NCBI GenBank assembly: GCA_017941635.1
Contig: JAGAVZ010000212.1
Coordinates: forward strand, 1 to 64,000
Length of the DNA stretch: 64,000 nt
From: Cellulosilyticum sp.
GTDB taxonomy: Bacteria; Bacillota; Clostridia; Lachnospirales; Cellulosilyticaceae
Direction of reading: 5' to 3'
The notes below the pieces were generated by a model. That model was not told the origin of the DNA and searched no databases. It saw only the letters and a list, made by a program, of their open reading frames with translations. The translations under genes were made by a program, and so were the position numbers. Positions 3,677 to 62,316 of the stretch are shown piece by piece (the stretch's first letter is position 1; each line of letters begins with the position of its first letter).

Positions 3677-5659
3677 TTATATCTTAAATTGATTAATTGT
3701 ACCACTTAATCCTTCTAACTGGGTATTTAATTCATCTGCTAGATGTGAAAGTTGTTCCATTACAGCTTTTTGTTCTTCACCTAAAGCATTAAGCTCCTGA
3801 GCAGCAGCCGCATTTTCTTCGGTAACAGTAGTAATGTTTTCGATTTTTTCTCCAACATGATTTTTTAATTCATCCATGGAATTACTTCTTTCACTAACTT
3901 GATTAATGCCTTTATTAATCATCATCAATTCTTCAATCATCTCACTTAACGACTTCTTGGTTTCTTCTGCTGCCTGTTCTTGTGCCACAAAGAATTCTCC
4001 TGACTGTTTAACTAGTTCCACAGCTTGGCTTGCTGCTAATTCAATTTCATTTAATGTACTTCTTACATTATTAGTAGAATTCTTAGATTGCTCTGCTAAA
4101 TTTCTTACCTCATTAGCTACAACTGCAAAGCCTCTACCCACTTCACCTGCTCTAGCTGCTTCTATACTTGCATTGAGTGCAAGGAGGTTCGTTTGTTCAC
4201 TGATATCATCTAATAATTTCATAACTTCACCAATTGTTCTAGTGAGCTCATTTAAAGAAATAATTTTTTCACTAATCTCTGCTGATATTGCAGTTGTGGA
4301 ATCCATTGCTCTATTGAGTCGCTCCATATTGTCACTTGCTTCTTCTATTTTATTTCTTGTACCTTCTGATTGTACATAAACCTCTTTTGTATCTTGCATA
4401 ACTGCTCTTATACTTTCAGAAAGTGTCTCCATCATAGCTGCACCATTCTGTGTATCTTCTGCTTGCGAGTTAGACCCTTCAGCAATGTTCTCAATAGATA
4501 AGGTTAATTGATTAAATGTTTCTATAGAATGTCCTGTATTTCTCTTTAAAATACTACTTGCATTTAAAACATTATCTATTGTAGACTGTGTTTCTTTGAC
4601 AAGCTCTTTAATATTATCTACCATATGATTGAAACTCTCACCGAGTTCACCAAGTTCATCCCCTGTCTTCACTTCAACTCTAACATTTAAATCTCCTGTT
4701 TCTGCTTCTTTCATAATCTTTCGCATCTTATCAATAAAGATCACAATACTTTGTGAAATCATATAGCCAGCTGCTACTGCTATAATTACACTTACTATAA
4801 TTAATATCCAGTTAAAGTAATTTACTTTATCAATTGCCTGTGTTAATACTTCAATCGGAATTTCTGCAACTACTTTCCAGCCATTGGTGCTTGTTGCATA
4901 TGTAATCAATTTTCCATTAATCTCTTTCTCTGCAACTTCAGCTTCACCTAAAGAAAAAGCTTTGACCTCTTCATTCAACACTGCACCTTCTGTTGAGCAT
5001 AAAACTTGTCCATTTTGATCTAACAAAAAGACATCTGAACCATCAAAAAGCTCAATATTTTTGATTTGTTCTTCTAAAGATGAAATATTACTTTCTGCAA
5101 TAAAGACACCTAATACTTTCCCTTTTTTTACGTTATGAAGTTGTCTCGTAATAAAAATATATCCTTCATACCCTGGAAAATCAGTAATCCATTGGATTGA
5201 ATTACCTTGCTCGTATTCTAAAAATCCAAGCACTTCTTCTTCACTTAAATATTCTTTTCTAGAGGACGGGTCAGAAGTCATTATAATATCTTGATCATCA
5301 TTAAATATTAATGTTATTTCTTTAATCGTATTGTCTAGCGCCAAAGAATATAATAATTGATTTCTAATATTAGTCTGTAAATTATGTTTAGCTAATCTAC
5401 CTTCTGTCCCTTTTTTACCAAGTGTTGAATACTGATCCATTAAGTTATAGCCAGTTGCGTTCAATTCATTAACAATAATACGATTTGAAAACTTTCCCAT
5501 TTCTTCTGCATATGTTGATATATTGGCACAAGCCTGCTCTATCATCTCAGTTGCTAGTTGACTACTTGTATCTTTTAATGTTTTTCGAGAGTTTACTGAT
5601 GAAAATAGATTAACGATAACTAATGGAATTGCTACACATAAAAAATACGAAATAACCAT
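3677..5659 (-). CDS. Methyl-accepting chemotaxis protein, 5' part frameshifted
   Basis: A 660-residue transmembrane chemoreceptor, from the first usable ATG. The order is a membrane helix ([17 protein letters not shown]), an extracellular dCache-type sensor to about residue 280, a second helix ([18 protein letters not shown]), HAMP, then a long coiled signalling domain. The kinase-contact tip is [19 protein letters not shown]. The ATG at 5659 lacks a well-spaced ribosome binding site. In-frame codons upstream (FTIKNR) align with the neighbouring paralogue (TSIKAK), so the natural protein begins further upstream in another frame; see 5668-5814. A -1 shift in an A6 run would give about 712 residues. 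Confidence 0.85.
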
Positions 5660-27685: not shown

Positions 27686-29503
27686 TTATTGTTTATCTCT
27701 TTCTTGTTTTCTTCTTTCTTCAATTTCTTTAATTTTTTTATCTATTTCACTAATGTAATCTACTTCATCTTGAACAGATTTACGCTCACCCATTATAGAT
27801 TTTTTATTTTTTTCAACTGCTAAAAAACCTTTTTCTTTAAACTCTTTCATACAAGCCTTAATAAAGGTTAAAGCATTTCTAGGAGATGTGTTTAGCATTT
27901 CTGGTTCTACCCCTACTTCTATCTCCTCATTTTTCTCAGCCTCAATTATAAGGTCTCGTGTATCAGAATCATTTTGAACTTCCAACTGTTTTTCCATATA
28001 TATAGATTCTAATTTTTCTTCAATATTACTCCTACTAGAGCTCACTGGCTCCTCATCTTGATTTTGAATTTGGGTAAGTTGTTCTTCAATTTCTTTAATC
28101 TTATTAGTAATCGTTTGATCACCCTTTAGCCTTGCAATAATCCGCTCTAACTCTTCTGATGTTTTAGCTGTAATATCATCTAAAGGCGTATCATCATCTC
28201 TAACAACACTAGCCGGATTAGCTTTACCTTTCGAAACTGGTATACCAGAATTAACCCCTTTTATAATAGCTGGATTATTTTCAAGCTCTTGTAATTTCTG
28301 AGCAATTTTTATCAGTATTGCCTCTGTATCTTCTATGCTCTCTCCTATATTATTGCCTTGACTATCAGTGGCTTGATTATTATTTATCTGTGTATCAATG
28401 GCTTGATTATTGCTTGCTTGTGCATCAATCGATTGAGCCACATTTCCCAAGAGTGGCTGCTTTGTAAAGTCACTTTGCTCTATCGTTTGATTGGTAGCAC
28501 CAGCATTATTATTATTTACACTAATTGGTTGATCATTTTGTCCATCGGAGATGTATTCAAATTCAATTTCCCCACCTGTTCCTACTGTATTATCTCCGAT
28601 TCCAATTGTGTTGCTTGATACACCAGATCCAGTTCCCTGTGTATTACCTCCTATACTAGTTCCTGTTCCCATCGTATTACTTCCTACATTAACTCCAGTT
28701 CCCATCGTATTACTTCCTGCACTAACTCCAGTTCCCATTGTATTACTTCCTGCACTAACTCCAGTTCCCATTTTATTACTTCCTACACCAGTTCCTGTTC
28801 CCATTGTATTACTTCCCATACTAGTTCCTGTTCCCTGTGTATTACTTACCATACCAGTTCCTGTTCCCTGTGTATTACTTCCTACGCCAGCTCCACTTCC
28901 CATTGTGTTACTCGTGGTTGTATTACTTTGCCCACAAGTACCATCATATTGATTGCCTTCTTTTAGATTATACTTGGTAGTTGATGTGCTTGTATTTTTA
29001 GATATCGGATTATTCCCCTTTACAATAGGGTCTGGCTGAACAAGCTTTTTATTTGTGCTATTAGTTGAGGTATAATCTTTTGCACTATAGCCTTGTTTTC
29101 CTTGAATCACTTTTGCAATATCATCTATCATAGGAACAATGATATACCGATTACTTTTAAAGCCCATTGCAATGGTATCTGCACCTCGCATATCATTCTC
29201 AGCTACAATAGCCACAGCATCTAGCTCTTCTAATTTAATGCCACTGTTTTGAACATTTTTCTCACTAACCATCCATTTAGTTTCTTTATTTTTTCCTAGT
29301 TTTCCTATGCGAACTCCTTTATCCTTTGCTTTACTAAAAGCATATAATGCATATTCACTACCTGTAGATTGTCCTTTTAGATTTTGAATATAGCATTTAA
29401 TCATTCCAGGTGAATTCATGGTGACATGACCTGTAACTTTTTTACCTTCAACTGCATATGTAGCAAGATTTTCTTGTAAAGTAATCAATGTATCAACATA
29501 CAT
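27686..29503 (-). CDS. Repeat-containing protein with N-terminal globular domain
   Basis: A 605-residue protein, family not recognised. Residues about 1-135 form a conserved-looking alpha/beta domain (MYVDTLITLQENLATYAVEGKKVTGHVTMNS... IGKLGKNKETKWMV). Then comes a Ser/Thr/Asn linker, nine 11-residue repeats of the form N-T-M/Q-G-T-G-x-x-x-G-S, and an N/Q-rich stretch. Coiled coils and a charged C-terminus ending in RKQERDKQ follow. There is no signal peptide. The ATG at 29503 has GGAGGGG 7 bases upstream. Repeat-rich clostridial proteins of this kind are often spore-surface or adhesive, but nothing here proves that. Confidence 0.75.
   Translation of the reverse strand: MYVDTLITLQENLATYAVEGKKVTGHVTMNSPGMIKCYIQNLKGQSTGSEYALYAFSKAKDKGVRIGKLGKNKETKWMVSEKNVQNSGIKLEELDAVAIVAENDMRGADTIAMGFKSNRYIIVPMIDDIAKVIQGKQGYSAKDYTSTNSTNKKLVQPDPIVKGNNPISKNTSTSTTKYNLKEGNQYDGTCGQSNTTTSNTMGSGAGVGSNTQGTGTGMVSNTQGTGTSMGSNTMGTGTGVGSNKMGTGVSAGSNTMGTGVSAGSNTMGTGVNVGSNTMGTGTSIGGNTQGTGSGVSSNTIGIGDNTVGTGGEIEFEYISDGQNDQPISVNNNNAGATNQTIEQSDFTKQPLLGNVAQSIDAQASNNQAIDTQINNNQATDSQGNNIGESIEDTEAILIKIAQKLQELENNPAIIKGVNSGIPVSKGKANPASVVRDDDTPLDDITAKTSEELERIIARLKGDQTITNKIKEIEEQLTQIQNQDEEPVSSSRSNIEEKLESIYMEKQLEVQNDSDTRDLIIEAEKNEEIEVGVEPEMLNTSPRNALTFIKACMKEFKEKGFLAVEKNKKSIMGERKSVQDEVDYISEIDKKIKEIEERRKQERDKQ
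28613..28909 (-). repeat. Nine tandem 33-bp coding repeats
   Basis: In-frame 33-bp units encode the 11-residue motif N-T-M/Q-G-T-G-x-x-x-G-S. Two central units (GVSAGSNTMGT) are nearly identical in DNA, a sign of recent duplication. Partial units follow at the 3' side. Copy number is likely variable between strains. Confidence 0.9.
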
Positions 29504-29578
29504 GTTCTTTCCCCTCCGTTTGTCCATTTTGACATTCTATATTATATATATGAGAGGAATTTAACACATATGACACCC

Positions 29579-31332: not shown

Positions 31333-32286
31333 TTAATTTTCGCACTGCTCATAGTTTCCTAATATCTTAAAATAACTACATTGATTCATAATTTGACTGA
31401 GTGCAATTAGCACATTAGCTTGTTGTAAGTTTCCTTCAAAATCAGCAAAGAAATAGTAGTCCCATTTCTTCTCTAATAATGGTCTAGATTGAATCTTAAG
31501 TAAGTTAAGTCCATTATGAGCAAAGTAACCTAGGATTTTATATAAAGACCCACTTACATGGTGTGAACTAAATACAATGCTAATTTTATTACTTTCATCT
31601 GTAATATTCATTTTGTTACTCAGGATAATGAATCGTGTAAAGTTATTCTTACTAAAATGAATATTTGACTTCAGAATTTCTAATCCATACAACTCTGCTG
31701 CCCTTTTGCTACCTATTGCAGCTTTTGTATGGTCTTTTAGATTTGCCACATCTTTACACGCTATAGCTGTATTGATATAAGGACAAGTTTTTATTTTACT
31801 ATGTTGCTTTAGGAATTCCTTGCTCTGACTTAACCCCTGTGGATGAGAATAAACTTCCTCAATATCCTCAATCTTTGTTCCTGGTAATCCAAGCAAGTTA
31901 TGCTGAATCTTGATACTTTGTTCTCCAACAATATAAAGCTCATTATTTTTGATTAAATCATATGTATCTAATACTTCTCCTGCACTACTATTCTCAATTG
32001 GTAATACACCATAATCAATTTTTCCTTCTAGAAGCGCTTCAATAACATCTTCAAATGATTCATGCGCAACTAGATTAGACCATCTCCCCTTAAAATAGGT
32101 ATAAGTTGCCTCTTCTCCATAAGCCCCTGGAACGCCCTGATAGCCTATAACCGGTGAAGTAATAATTTCTGAATTAATCCCTTCTTCTATCTGACATAAG
32201 ATATGCTGATTGTGCTCATACAAATTTTCAATTGAAACATTTAGTTTTCTTGTAAGCCCTGTATATTGTCCTTCTGACTCCATCAT
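31333..32286 (-). CDS. pheA: Prephenate dehydratase (without chorismate mutase domain)
   Basis: A 317-residue enzyme converting prephenate to phenylpyruvate. The catalytic PDT domain starts at IGYQGVPGAYGEEATYTYF and includes GVLPIENSSAGEV and the conserved NNFTRFIIL. A C-terminal ACT regulatory domain for phenylalanine feedback follows (SGSLYKILGYFAHNGLNLLKIQSRP). The first 45 residues are not a recognisable chorismate mutase, which is often fused here in clostridia. The start is one of two adjacent ATGs (32286/32283) after GGGGTG; a TTG at 32316 is less likely. A Phe-rich leader ORF and an attenuator precede it. Confidence 0.92.
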   Translation of the reverse strand: MMESEGQYTGLTRKLNVSIENLYEHNQHILCQIEEGINSEIITSPVIGYQGVPGAYGEEATYTYFKGRWSNLVAHESFEDVIEALLEGKIDYGVLPIENSSAGEVLDTYDLIKNNELYIVGEQSIKIQHNLLGLPGTKIEDIEEVYSHPQGLSQSKEFLKQHSKIKTCPYINTAIACKDVANLKDHTKAAIGSKRAAELYGLEILKSNIHFSKNNFTRFIILSNKMNITDESNKISIVFSSHHVSGSLYKILGYFAHNGLNLLKIQSRPLLEKKWDYYFFADFEGNLQQANVLIALSQIMNQCSYFKILGNYEQCEN

Positions 32287-32381
32287 TTCACCCCATTTAT
32301 TTTTGTTCTTAATCAATACTTATAAAAGTATACGATTAAGCCATTTCGTTACTAACTCAAATTTTCATTCTCTATTTCTAT

Positions 32382-32422
32382 AAAAAAATAAAGGACTTAT
32401 ACTTTCCTCAGCATAAGACCTT
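32382..32422 (-). terminator. Attenuator hairpin upstream of pheA
   Basis: On the minus strand AAGG-CTTAT-CT pairs with AG-ATAAG-CCTT (one T x T mismatch, one G-T), loop GAGGAA, followed by TATTTTTTT. It lies between the leader peptide ORF and pheA, 96 bases before the pheA start. Confidence 0.75.
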
Positions 32423-32475
32423 ATCTCTTTACATTTCAAAGAAGATATTCAATGTTTAGACTCTGCTTGAAAGCT

Positions 32476-32583
32476 CTAAATTATTTTTAGGCATCTAAAA
32501 CAACCAGCACTAAAAGAAAAGTAGCCCCAGCTAAAGAAAAAAGCATTAAATGGTACTCTAGCCATACTCAACAAAGCACTCAT
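32476..32583 (-). CDS. pheL: Phe-rich leader peptide of pheA
   Basis: A 35-codon ORF with AAAGGAG 8 bases before its ATG. The sequence is MSALLSMARVPFNAFFFSWG, then YFSFSAGCFRCLKII. It has seven Phe (three consecutive), one Trp and one Tyr in 35 residues. It begins about 70 bases after a consensus promoter, and a terminator lies 53 bases after its stop, ahead of pheA. This is the layout of peptide-coupled attenuation as in E. coli pheL-pheA. Its stop codon sits inside a hairpin TTTAGA-GCTT/AAGC-TCTAAA. The symbol is given by analogy; there is no evidence of homology to E. coli pheL. Confidence 0.7.
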   Translation of the reverse strand: MSALLSMARVPFNAFFFSWGYFSFSAGCFRCLKII

Positions 32584-32659
32584 CCGAAAATCTCCTTTCA
32601 TTTATATCCAAACACTATATCATTATCTAAAAATTATCTTTTGTTTATAAATTAGGTTC

Positions 32660-32688
32660 ATTATAATTTTTTAAGCTTTATTTGTCAA
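32660..32688 (-). promoter_or_regulatory. Consensus promoter of the pheL-pheA leader
   Basis: Perfect TTGACA (32688-32683), exactly 17 bases, perfect TATAAT (32665-32660). Transcription would start near 32653. Confidence 0.9.
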
Positions 32689-61728: not shown

Positions 61729-62100
61729 AAAAAACCCCGCCTCCATAACTAAGTTGTTATAGAGGCGAGGATTATATACTCGCGTTACCACTCTATTTCA
61801 TTTATACCTCACGATATAAACCTCATCAAGTACTTCTATAAATCTAGGTCTTTATACTTATAAGAAGTATGCTCTCTTATACAGTATACTATCGTATAAG
61901 ATATGTTATCTTATAAACTGTTTAACCTAAAATATATACTAATACCCTATCGCTATAACAGGCGAACCTGTTGCAGCCTAACTACCTAAGTAGATTCGGT
62001 GCACCATTCCGAGGCCATCTTCAACTTAAGTCCCTTTGCTTCTTCTCAGCTACCGAAGCTCTCTTTGAAAGTTTTTTAAGCTTACTCTCCTCTTCACTAT
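61729..62100 (-). promoter_or_regulatory. T-box riboswitch (Met) controlling metG
   Basis: On the minus strand: stem I with the AG-bulge/distal loop region (AAAGAGAGCTTCGGTAGCTG, GAGAAGAAGC), a specifier loop TTGAAG-ATG-GCC with Met codon ATG (62018-62016), variable helices, the T-box sequence GAGTGGTAACGCG (61793-61781), and a terminator (61735-61770, CCTCGCCTC...GAGGCGGGG) with T6. Uncharged tRNA-Met would pair with ATG and UGGU to allow read-through into metG. Confidence 0.92.
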
Positions 62101-62316
62101 GTTTACTTATTCAAATTTTAATATTGATATTACCTACCTAGCATATCAATATATTATAAAGTATTTGTCATGTCATTAGAGTTTATCCATTTTCCTAATC
62201 ATTTAATCAAGTCTGTTTCTATCTCATCAAGTTTCATGACACAATTTATAACTAGCTATAATTATATTCTATATCATTTTATTTTTCAATGAGATTTTTT
62301 ACTACCTCATGATGCG

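Follow-up and report, generated by a model that had tools for sequence, protein, structure and literature searches.

The leader of the prephenate dehydratase gene pheA in a Cellulosilyticum genome very probably works as an off-switch. With a probability that we put at about 0.8, it is a ribosome-mediated transcription attenuator that senses charged aromatic tRNA, in this locus mainly Phe-tRNA. The locus lies in a stretch of 64,000 nucleotides of Cellulosilyticum sp. (GCA_017941635.1, contig JAGAVZ010000212.1), which was analysed as a whole and is referred to here as the window. A sequence-only reading of the window had proposed that pheA is attenuated through a Phe-rich leader peptide. The attenuation part of this proposal is upheld by conserved codons, a terminator and an antiterminator, but the restriction to pheA is not, since comparison with relatives indicates that the element is a widespread aromatic-pathway attenuator found mostly before DAHP synthase genes in many Clostridia.

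The pheA leader in the window

On the minus strand the block is arranged in the order ksgA, promoter, leader ORF, terminator and pheA, with coordinates given in Table 1. Three features named in the sequence-only reading, a perfect promoter, a 35-codon ORF with a strong SD sequence and a U-tract terminator shortly before pheA, are all borne out. The promoter is the only one of seven promoter-like sites with a perfect score. The ORF follows closely on AAAGGAG and contains seven Phe codons (FFF included), one Trp and one Tyr, as had been counted before. The terminator ends at 32382, about 95 nt from the pheA start at 32286; a simple terminator scan returned nothing at this leader because of a T:T mismatch in the terminator stem. 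The entire leader folds better than its own shuffles (z -3.4). The hairpin that had been described as spanning the stop codon of the ORF does not stand as a conserved feature, and the conserved hairpin is instead located further upstream, inside the ORF (32532-32502).

Table 1. Features of the pheA leader region, in positions of the window
Feature	Position	Strand	Sequence	Remarks
Sigma-A type promoter	32688..32660	minus	TTGACA-N17-TATAAT	12/12 match
Leader ORF	32583..32476	minus	MSALLSMARVPFNAFFFSWGYFSFSAGCFRCLKII	35 codons; stop TAG 32478-32476
Aromatic codon cluster (sensor window)	32497..32547	minus		Proposed ribosome stall sites at Phe-tRNA shortage
P1 hairpin in ORF	32502..32532	minus		8.1/9 pairs against synonymous-codon null; covariation and slide controls
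Proposed pause signal	32492..32503	minus	TTGTTT at -11..-6	RNA 3' end U 32493; +1 G 32492
Region 2, putative antiterminator 5' strand	32458..32472	minus	UUUCAAGCAGAGUCU	About 30-32 nt past P1; pairs region 3
Region 3, apical terminator 5' arm and loop	32406..32422	minus		Pairing partner of region 2
Intrinsic terminator hairpin and U-tract	32427..32382	minus	GAGATAAGGTCTTATGCTGAGGAAAGTATAAGTCCTTTATTTTTTT	Best hairpin -15.3 kcal/mol
pheA, prephenate dehydratase with ACT domain	31333..32286	minus		Pfam PF00800 (PDT) 1.9e-60; PF01842 weak

A covariance-model search with Rfam of the region before pheA returned no T-box (RF00230), in agreement with the sequence-only reading, and no other family. Searches of Rfam, Pfam and NCBIfam with the leader RNA and peptides likewise matched no family.

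Distribution and gene association

The same block of perfect promoter, leader and terminator precedes pheA in three congeners (L003, L004 and L007), and leader matches are also present in Cellulosilyticum (C. ruminicola, L176) and Niameybacter (L199). Other members of the family carry the same leader before the DAHP synthase gene (aroF), which is often followed by pheA, and the relatives have in common the peptide core F-F-F-S-W-G-Y-F-x-F-S-A-G-x-F. Because frame, promoter and terminator recur in the three congeners and in other genera (before aroF-pheA), the features of the locus go beyond chance. Loss of the leader frame among relatives had been named as a result that would speak against attenuation; the frame is in fact kept well beyond the genus. 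Phe-rich short ORFs do arise by chance in AT-rich DNA, and the leader could in principle be an unrelated short peptide gene that happens to stand before an ordinary terminator, but such an incidental ORF is contradicted by a frame, a gene association and a structure that are kept over many genera and families, which makes it hardly credible.

When genomes were searched with the peptide model, matches came from 32 of 392 at the level of the order, 37 of 391 at that of the class and 8 of 398 at that of the phylum; the weakest matches in the order and class counts are false. The weak matches L077-L081 and L107, as well as a Pseudomonas match to the DNA pattern (L200), have no leader context and were dropped. 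The DNA pattern search of named genomes matched more than 118 stretches, which is a lower bound. Among the matches listed are Clostridium magnum, C. tyrobutyricum, C. ljungdahlii, C. tertium, Clostridioides difficile CD160, Terrisporobacter, Romboutsia, Alkaliphilus, Geosporobacter, Vallitalea, Eubacterium barkeri, Megasphaera and Trichococcus. The collected set holds 118 distinct leaders from Clostridia plus Megasphaera and Trichococcus, and shikimate or aromatic genes are located downstream in 111 of the 112 that could be classified. The next gene encodes DAHP synthase in 96 of these 112 leaders, prephenate dehydratase in 7, another shikimate or aromatic function in 8 (tyrA, aroB, aroK and aroQ) and a sodium:solute symporter in 1, with the last nine leaders assigned by eye.

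Several individual loci deserve mention. The symporter gene, found after position 4913 of the oriented locus L191, is the sole non-biosynthetic next gene and may encode an aromatic amino-acid transporter. The genome of Clostridium magnum has at least three copies of the leader (L132, L174 and L184), placed before a DAHP synthase gene and two shikimate kinase genes. Near-identical leaders occur in Trichococcus (Bacilli) and in a record labelled Sedimentibacter (L162, L171, L172 and L208), which would point either to horizontal transfer or to a mislabelled record. Finally, nine loci (L067, L069, L073, L070, L052, L056, L054, L087 and L174) have near-perfect palindromes with GC-rich centres between the terminator and the first gene, such as AATACTATGC|GCAGAGTATT and GATATAGGGG|CCCCTATATC, for which an operator and a second RNA element are candidate explanations.

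A conserved hairpin inside the reading frame

The P1 hairpin is always in codon register, with the codons of S-W-G pairing those of S-A-G around a G.G mismatch. In the window, AGCUGG-G-GCU (32532-32523) pairs with AGU-G-CUGGUU (32511-32502). The 51 peptide-selected leaders form on average 8.1 of the 9 pairs, compared with 5.07 +/- 0.20 when their codons are redrawn synonymously, a difference of about 15 SD from this null; pattern-selected leaders (L131-L210) were left out of the P1 statistics because the search pattern itself contains P1. When 36 distinct sequences are used for a slide control, 92.8% of cells pair in register and at most 45% do so with one strand slid, and the same sequences have changes on both sides in four of the pairs. 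P1 is also kept where the encoded residues change, as in L094 (SQS/SFG), L095 and L097 (NAG; GUU/AAC) and L101 (SAG lost), and again in the later-found leaders L251, L254 and L256.

Antiterminator, terminator and aromatic codons

An intrinsic terminator is located 10-86 nt past the stop codon in 110 of 113 testable leaders. The sequence-only reading could define no convincing antiterminator; one can now be defined, since the minimum-energy fold of the leader segment in the window joins region 2 (32472-32458) to region 3 as long as the 3' arm of the terminator (region 4) is left off (-11.5 kcal/mol). With this arm included, the terminator wins (-21.0). Over the family, the best duplex of regions 2 and 3 has a mean of -9.7 kcal/mol versus -7.1 in shuffles, and the combined z is -14.9 for all leaders and -8.4 for the peptide-selected ones, values that overstate independence because the leaders share descent. 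The shuffle test on single sequences is weak, with 33 of 110 leaders below 0.05, and the case for the pairing is therefore made by the combined score together with a fixed position: region 2 starts 27-37 nt past P1 in 85 of 110 leaders. The pairing is moreover kept through sequence turnover, as in UAAUGAG/CUCAUUA, UUCUAAG/CUUAGAA, UUAAGAG/CUCUUAA, UAAGA(A)GCU/AGCUCUUA and AAAGCUCGCUU/GGCGAGCUUU. In the window taken alone the duplex is no better than in shuffles (p 0.72), so that the antiterminator proposed there depends on its position, on the fold lacking region 4 and on the relatives. For the family as a whole, these comparisons argue for an antiterminator strand in competition with the terminator, located where the ribosome can reach it.

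In 117 leaders, aromatic codons cluster between codons -16 and +4 relative to the end of P1; they are near zero at +5 to +7, with 1-2% at +5 and +6. Phe and Tyr exchange freely at the core positions of the peptide. Front-edge positions in the window leader were derived from the usual ribosome footprints, by which a ribosome at the last Phe codon (32499-32497) would reach to about 32486, short of region 2, and a ribosome at the stop codon would reach to about 32465, inside region 2. The run of aromatic codons stops at the point from which a stalled ribosome would start to cover region 2. For 33 of 110 leaders, a ribosome waiting at the stop codon would not cover region 2, which is situated too far 5' of it, and because these leaders misfit the simple picture, masking while the ribosome passes, and not once it has come to the stop codon, may be what matters. 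As a separate observation, most leaders have a conserved Lys-Lys (mostly AAA AAA) at codons +5 and +6 past the Gly of SAG, directly past the proposed pause, with K in 72 and 85 of 117 leaders, respectively.

The pheA-only leaders of this genus have 0-1 core Tyr codons, compared with 2-4 in the aroF-linked sisters, while both groups have at least six core Phe codons. The pheA copies of this genus thus look like a Phe-specialised offshoot of the aromatic attenuator, with a counter-case in two pheA leaders of other families, where Tyr is retained.

A proposed RNA polymerase pause

The window sequence that follows on P1 reads CTGG-TTGTTTTAGAT-G. Among 103 distinct leaders, a U is present at -1 in 99 and a G at +1 in 70, 11 nt past the CUGG of P1, relative to a background of 16% for codons beginning with T and 1.9% for TG codons. 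The full TTNTTT at -11..-6 is found in 19 of 46 peptide-selected leaders versus 6.6 expected. At this site 113 of 117 leaders have a codon for Cys, Tyr, Trp, Leu (TTR) or Phe, residues whose codons share the first T only. The aromatic codons of the ORF run as far as this site and then cease. Seven later-found leaders (L250-L252 and L254-L257) that had no part in defining the signature all have U then G at -1/+1; all seven were read and three were checked by script, and L256 and L257 are nearly identical. Pauses stabilised by NusG in B. subtilis combine TTNTTT at -11..-6 with a hairpin located 11-12 nt upstream (PMC12288461). The NusG of the window's genome contains VRNTRGV, that is, N-T at the reviewed positions N81/T82, the residues of the pro-pausing type. 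P1, TTGTTT and the U/G step together probably constitute a programmed RNA polymerase pause that synchronises the ribosome.

The hairpin could also be read as a classical 1:2 protector, or as a structure that simply slows the ribosome, in an attenuator that is otherwise the same. The 1:2 hairpin of enterobacterial leaders serves as both pause and protector, and in some leaders, L061 being one, region 2 is a possible pairing partner of the 3' arm of P1. A search of 107 leaders for a conserved upstream strand (region 1) able to protect region 2 gave none, however, with a combined z of -0.6 for such a complement, and a protector would leave the exact 11-nt spacing, the T-rich stretch and the U-1/G+1 step unexplained. 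Not every attenuator has a protector, which characterises the enterobacterial subtype. We regard this use of P1 as rather unlikely and retain the programmed pause.

The same signature bears on a different kind of sensor, an arrest peptide in the style of TnaC or the Erm leaders, in which SWG, SAG and Cys would form the arrest motif and an aromatic amino acid in its free form would be detected inside the exit tunnel. The strong conservation of the peptide core is what such a sensor would lead one to expect. The non-aromatic conservation can nevertheless be accounted for at the RNA level, SWG and SAG by P1, Cys and Trp by the U/G step and the terminal FLMS by region 2; P1 persists in L094, L095, L097 and L101 where the residues differ, and Phe and Tyr are interchangeable at core positions. 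An arrest peptide is accordingly considered improbable, and tRNA charging is taken as the probable signal below.

Proposed mechanism

In the attenuation mechanism that these features suggest, RNA polymerase would start at ~32653, transcribe the leader ORF and probably pause near 32493, just past P1, which would allow the first ribosome to catch up. If Phe-tRNA is charged, the ribosome would traverse the aromatic codons, open P1 and trail the polymerase past the end of the ORF. The trailing ribosome would mask region 2 (32472-32458), the 3:4 terminator hairpin (32427-32382) would form and pheA would be off. If charged Phe-tRNA is scarce, the ribosome would stall in the aromatic run with its front edge short of region 2, and region 2, left free, would pair with the terminator's 5' arm and loop, so that transcription enters pheA. 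Sequence comparison shows the ORF, the aromatic cluster, P1, the complementarity of regions 2 and 3, the terminator and the association with aromatic genes, whereas the pause, the masking and the response to charging are inferred.

That no conserved partner sequesters region 2 suggests that readthrough is the default and that termination occurs only with a closely following ribosome. A pause is what this design would need where polymerase may outrun ribosomes (PMC7858274). The broader reading, of a class-wide attenuator of Clostridia that has its own programmed pause (in-ORF hairpin and NusG motif), reads through by default when untranslated and uses no protector, is offered tentatively, with a confidence that falls a little short of even.

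Relation to known systems

Ribosome-mediated attenuation of amino-acid genes is textbook knowledge for enterobacteria, where the E. coli pheA leader (pheL), trp, his and pheST are leader-peptide attenuators, and Gram-positive relatives are said to use T-boxes. The Clostridial leaders resemble these systems in their short ORF with codons for the product, their alternative antiterminator and terminator hairpins and their control of aromatic genes. They differ in having no Rfam match, a separate conserved pause-like hairpin in the ORF, no conserved 1:2 protector, mixed Phe/Tyr/Trp codons and a position mostly before DAHP synthase, in Clostridia.

Ribosome-read aromatic switches are little known in Clostridia, though F/Y-rich uORFs at shikimate genes were already pictured in 2019. 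The main text of Stav et al. 2019 presents them in Fig. 6b from five genomes including Clostridium novyi, and this motif, likewise a Phe/Tyr-rich uORF associated with shikimate genes, is probably a member of the family described here, provided that it was drawn from the C. novyi genome; that main text gives no mechanism, antiterminator, pause or distribution (PMC6429828). The article of Brewer et al. 2021 describes uORFC-13-1, which also combines a promoter, a uORF with Phe codons and a terminator before aroF, from 24 representatives in Acholeplasma and environmental sequences only (PMC8632094). Within Bacillota, leader peptides have been reported for hisS/hisZ in bacilli (PMC2965389) and for a Leu-rich attenuator in S. 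aureus (PMC5794164). These are similar as ribosome-read attenuation, sometimes in place of T-boxes, but concern other amino acids and other genes with no shared sequence reported. In the tlrB/yxjB leader of B. subtilis, NusG-dependent pausing gives time for translation of the leader peptide before the attenuator (PMC6851288), with the difference that it senses tylosin rather than tRNA charging as proposed for the Clostridial switch. In the literature searched, including the main texts of Stav et al. and Brewer et al., we met with no account of the spread, the in-ORF hairpin, the antiterminator as defined here or the pause proposal.

Transcription in B. subtilis largely outruns translation (Johnson et al. 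2020, reviewed in PMC7858274), and ribosome-mediated attenuation should for this reason be difficult there. A leader family that carries its own pause would, if true, make this form of attenuation workable in a phylum whose polymerase is thought to outrun the ribosome, and the conserved pause-like element in the ORF leads to a concrete and testable proposal on the way in which Clostridia bring the two together. The aro and pheA genes of many species, among them the solvent- and acid-producing C. ljungdahlii and C. tyrobutyricum, moreover gain a regulatory annotation from the family, which also offers a tool for predicting aromatic transporters.

T-boxes and other elements of the genome

Elsewhere in the window's genome there are 20 matches to the T-box family (RF00230), largely before tRNA synthetase genes, including pheS and tyrS by sequence appearance. 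With these T-boxes present beside the leader attenuator, tRNA sensors of both kinds coexist in one genome. The conserved hairpin and terminator might also be expected of an RNA that binds a small molecule or protein (riboswitch, T-box or TRAP-like) and overlaps the ORF by chance. Such an RNA is very improbable here: no Rfam match was obtained in the window's leader or in the loci of 38 relatives, no conserved aptamer-like core was found outside the reading frame, P1 is in codon register, the aromatic codons are conserved as codons and the T-boxes of the genome are elsewhere, mostly before aminoacyl-tRNA synthetases. Attenuation by a translating ribosome remains the preferred reading.

A search of the window's genome returned no match to the DAHP synthase of the C. 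lentocellum type; the genome has another DAHP synthase, with no leader or T-box in sight. At 61758-62106 on the minus strand, the window contains a T-box-like leader (L128) whose score of 85.6 bits is slightly below the Rfam gathering score of 93, and the gene that follows it looks like a methionyl-tRNA synthetase. At 27686-29527, also on the minus strand, a 613-aa protein is encoded with a DUF7922 domain in its N-terminal part and with degenerate repeats around GTG(T/V)S-GSNTMGTG.
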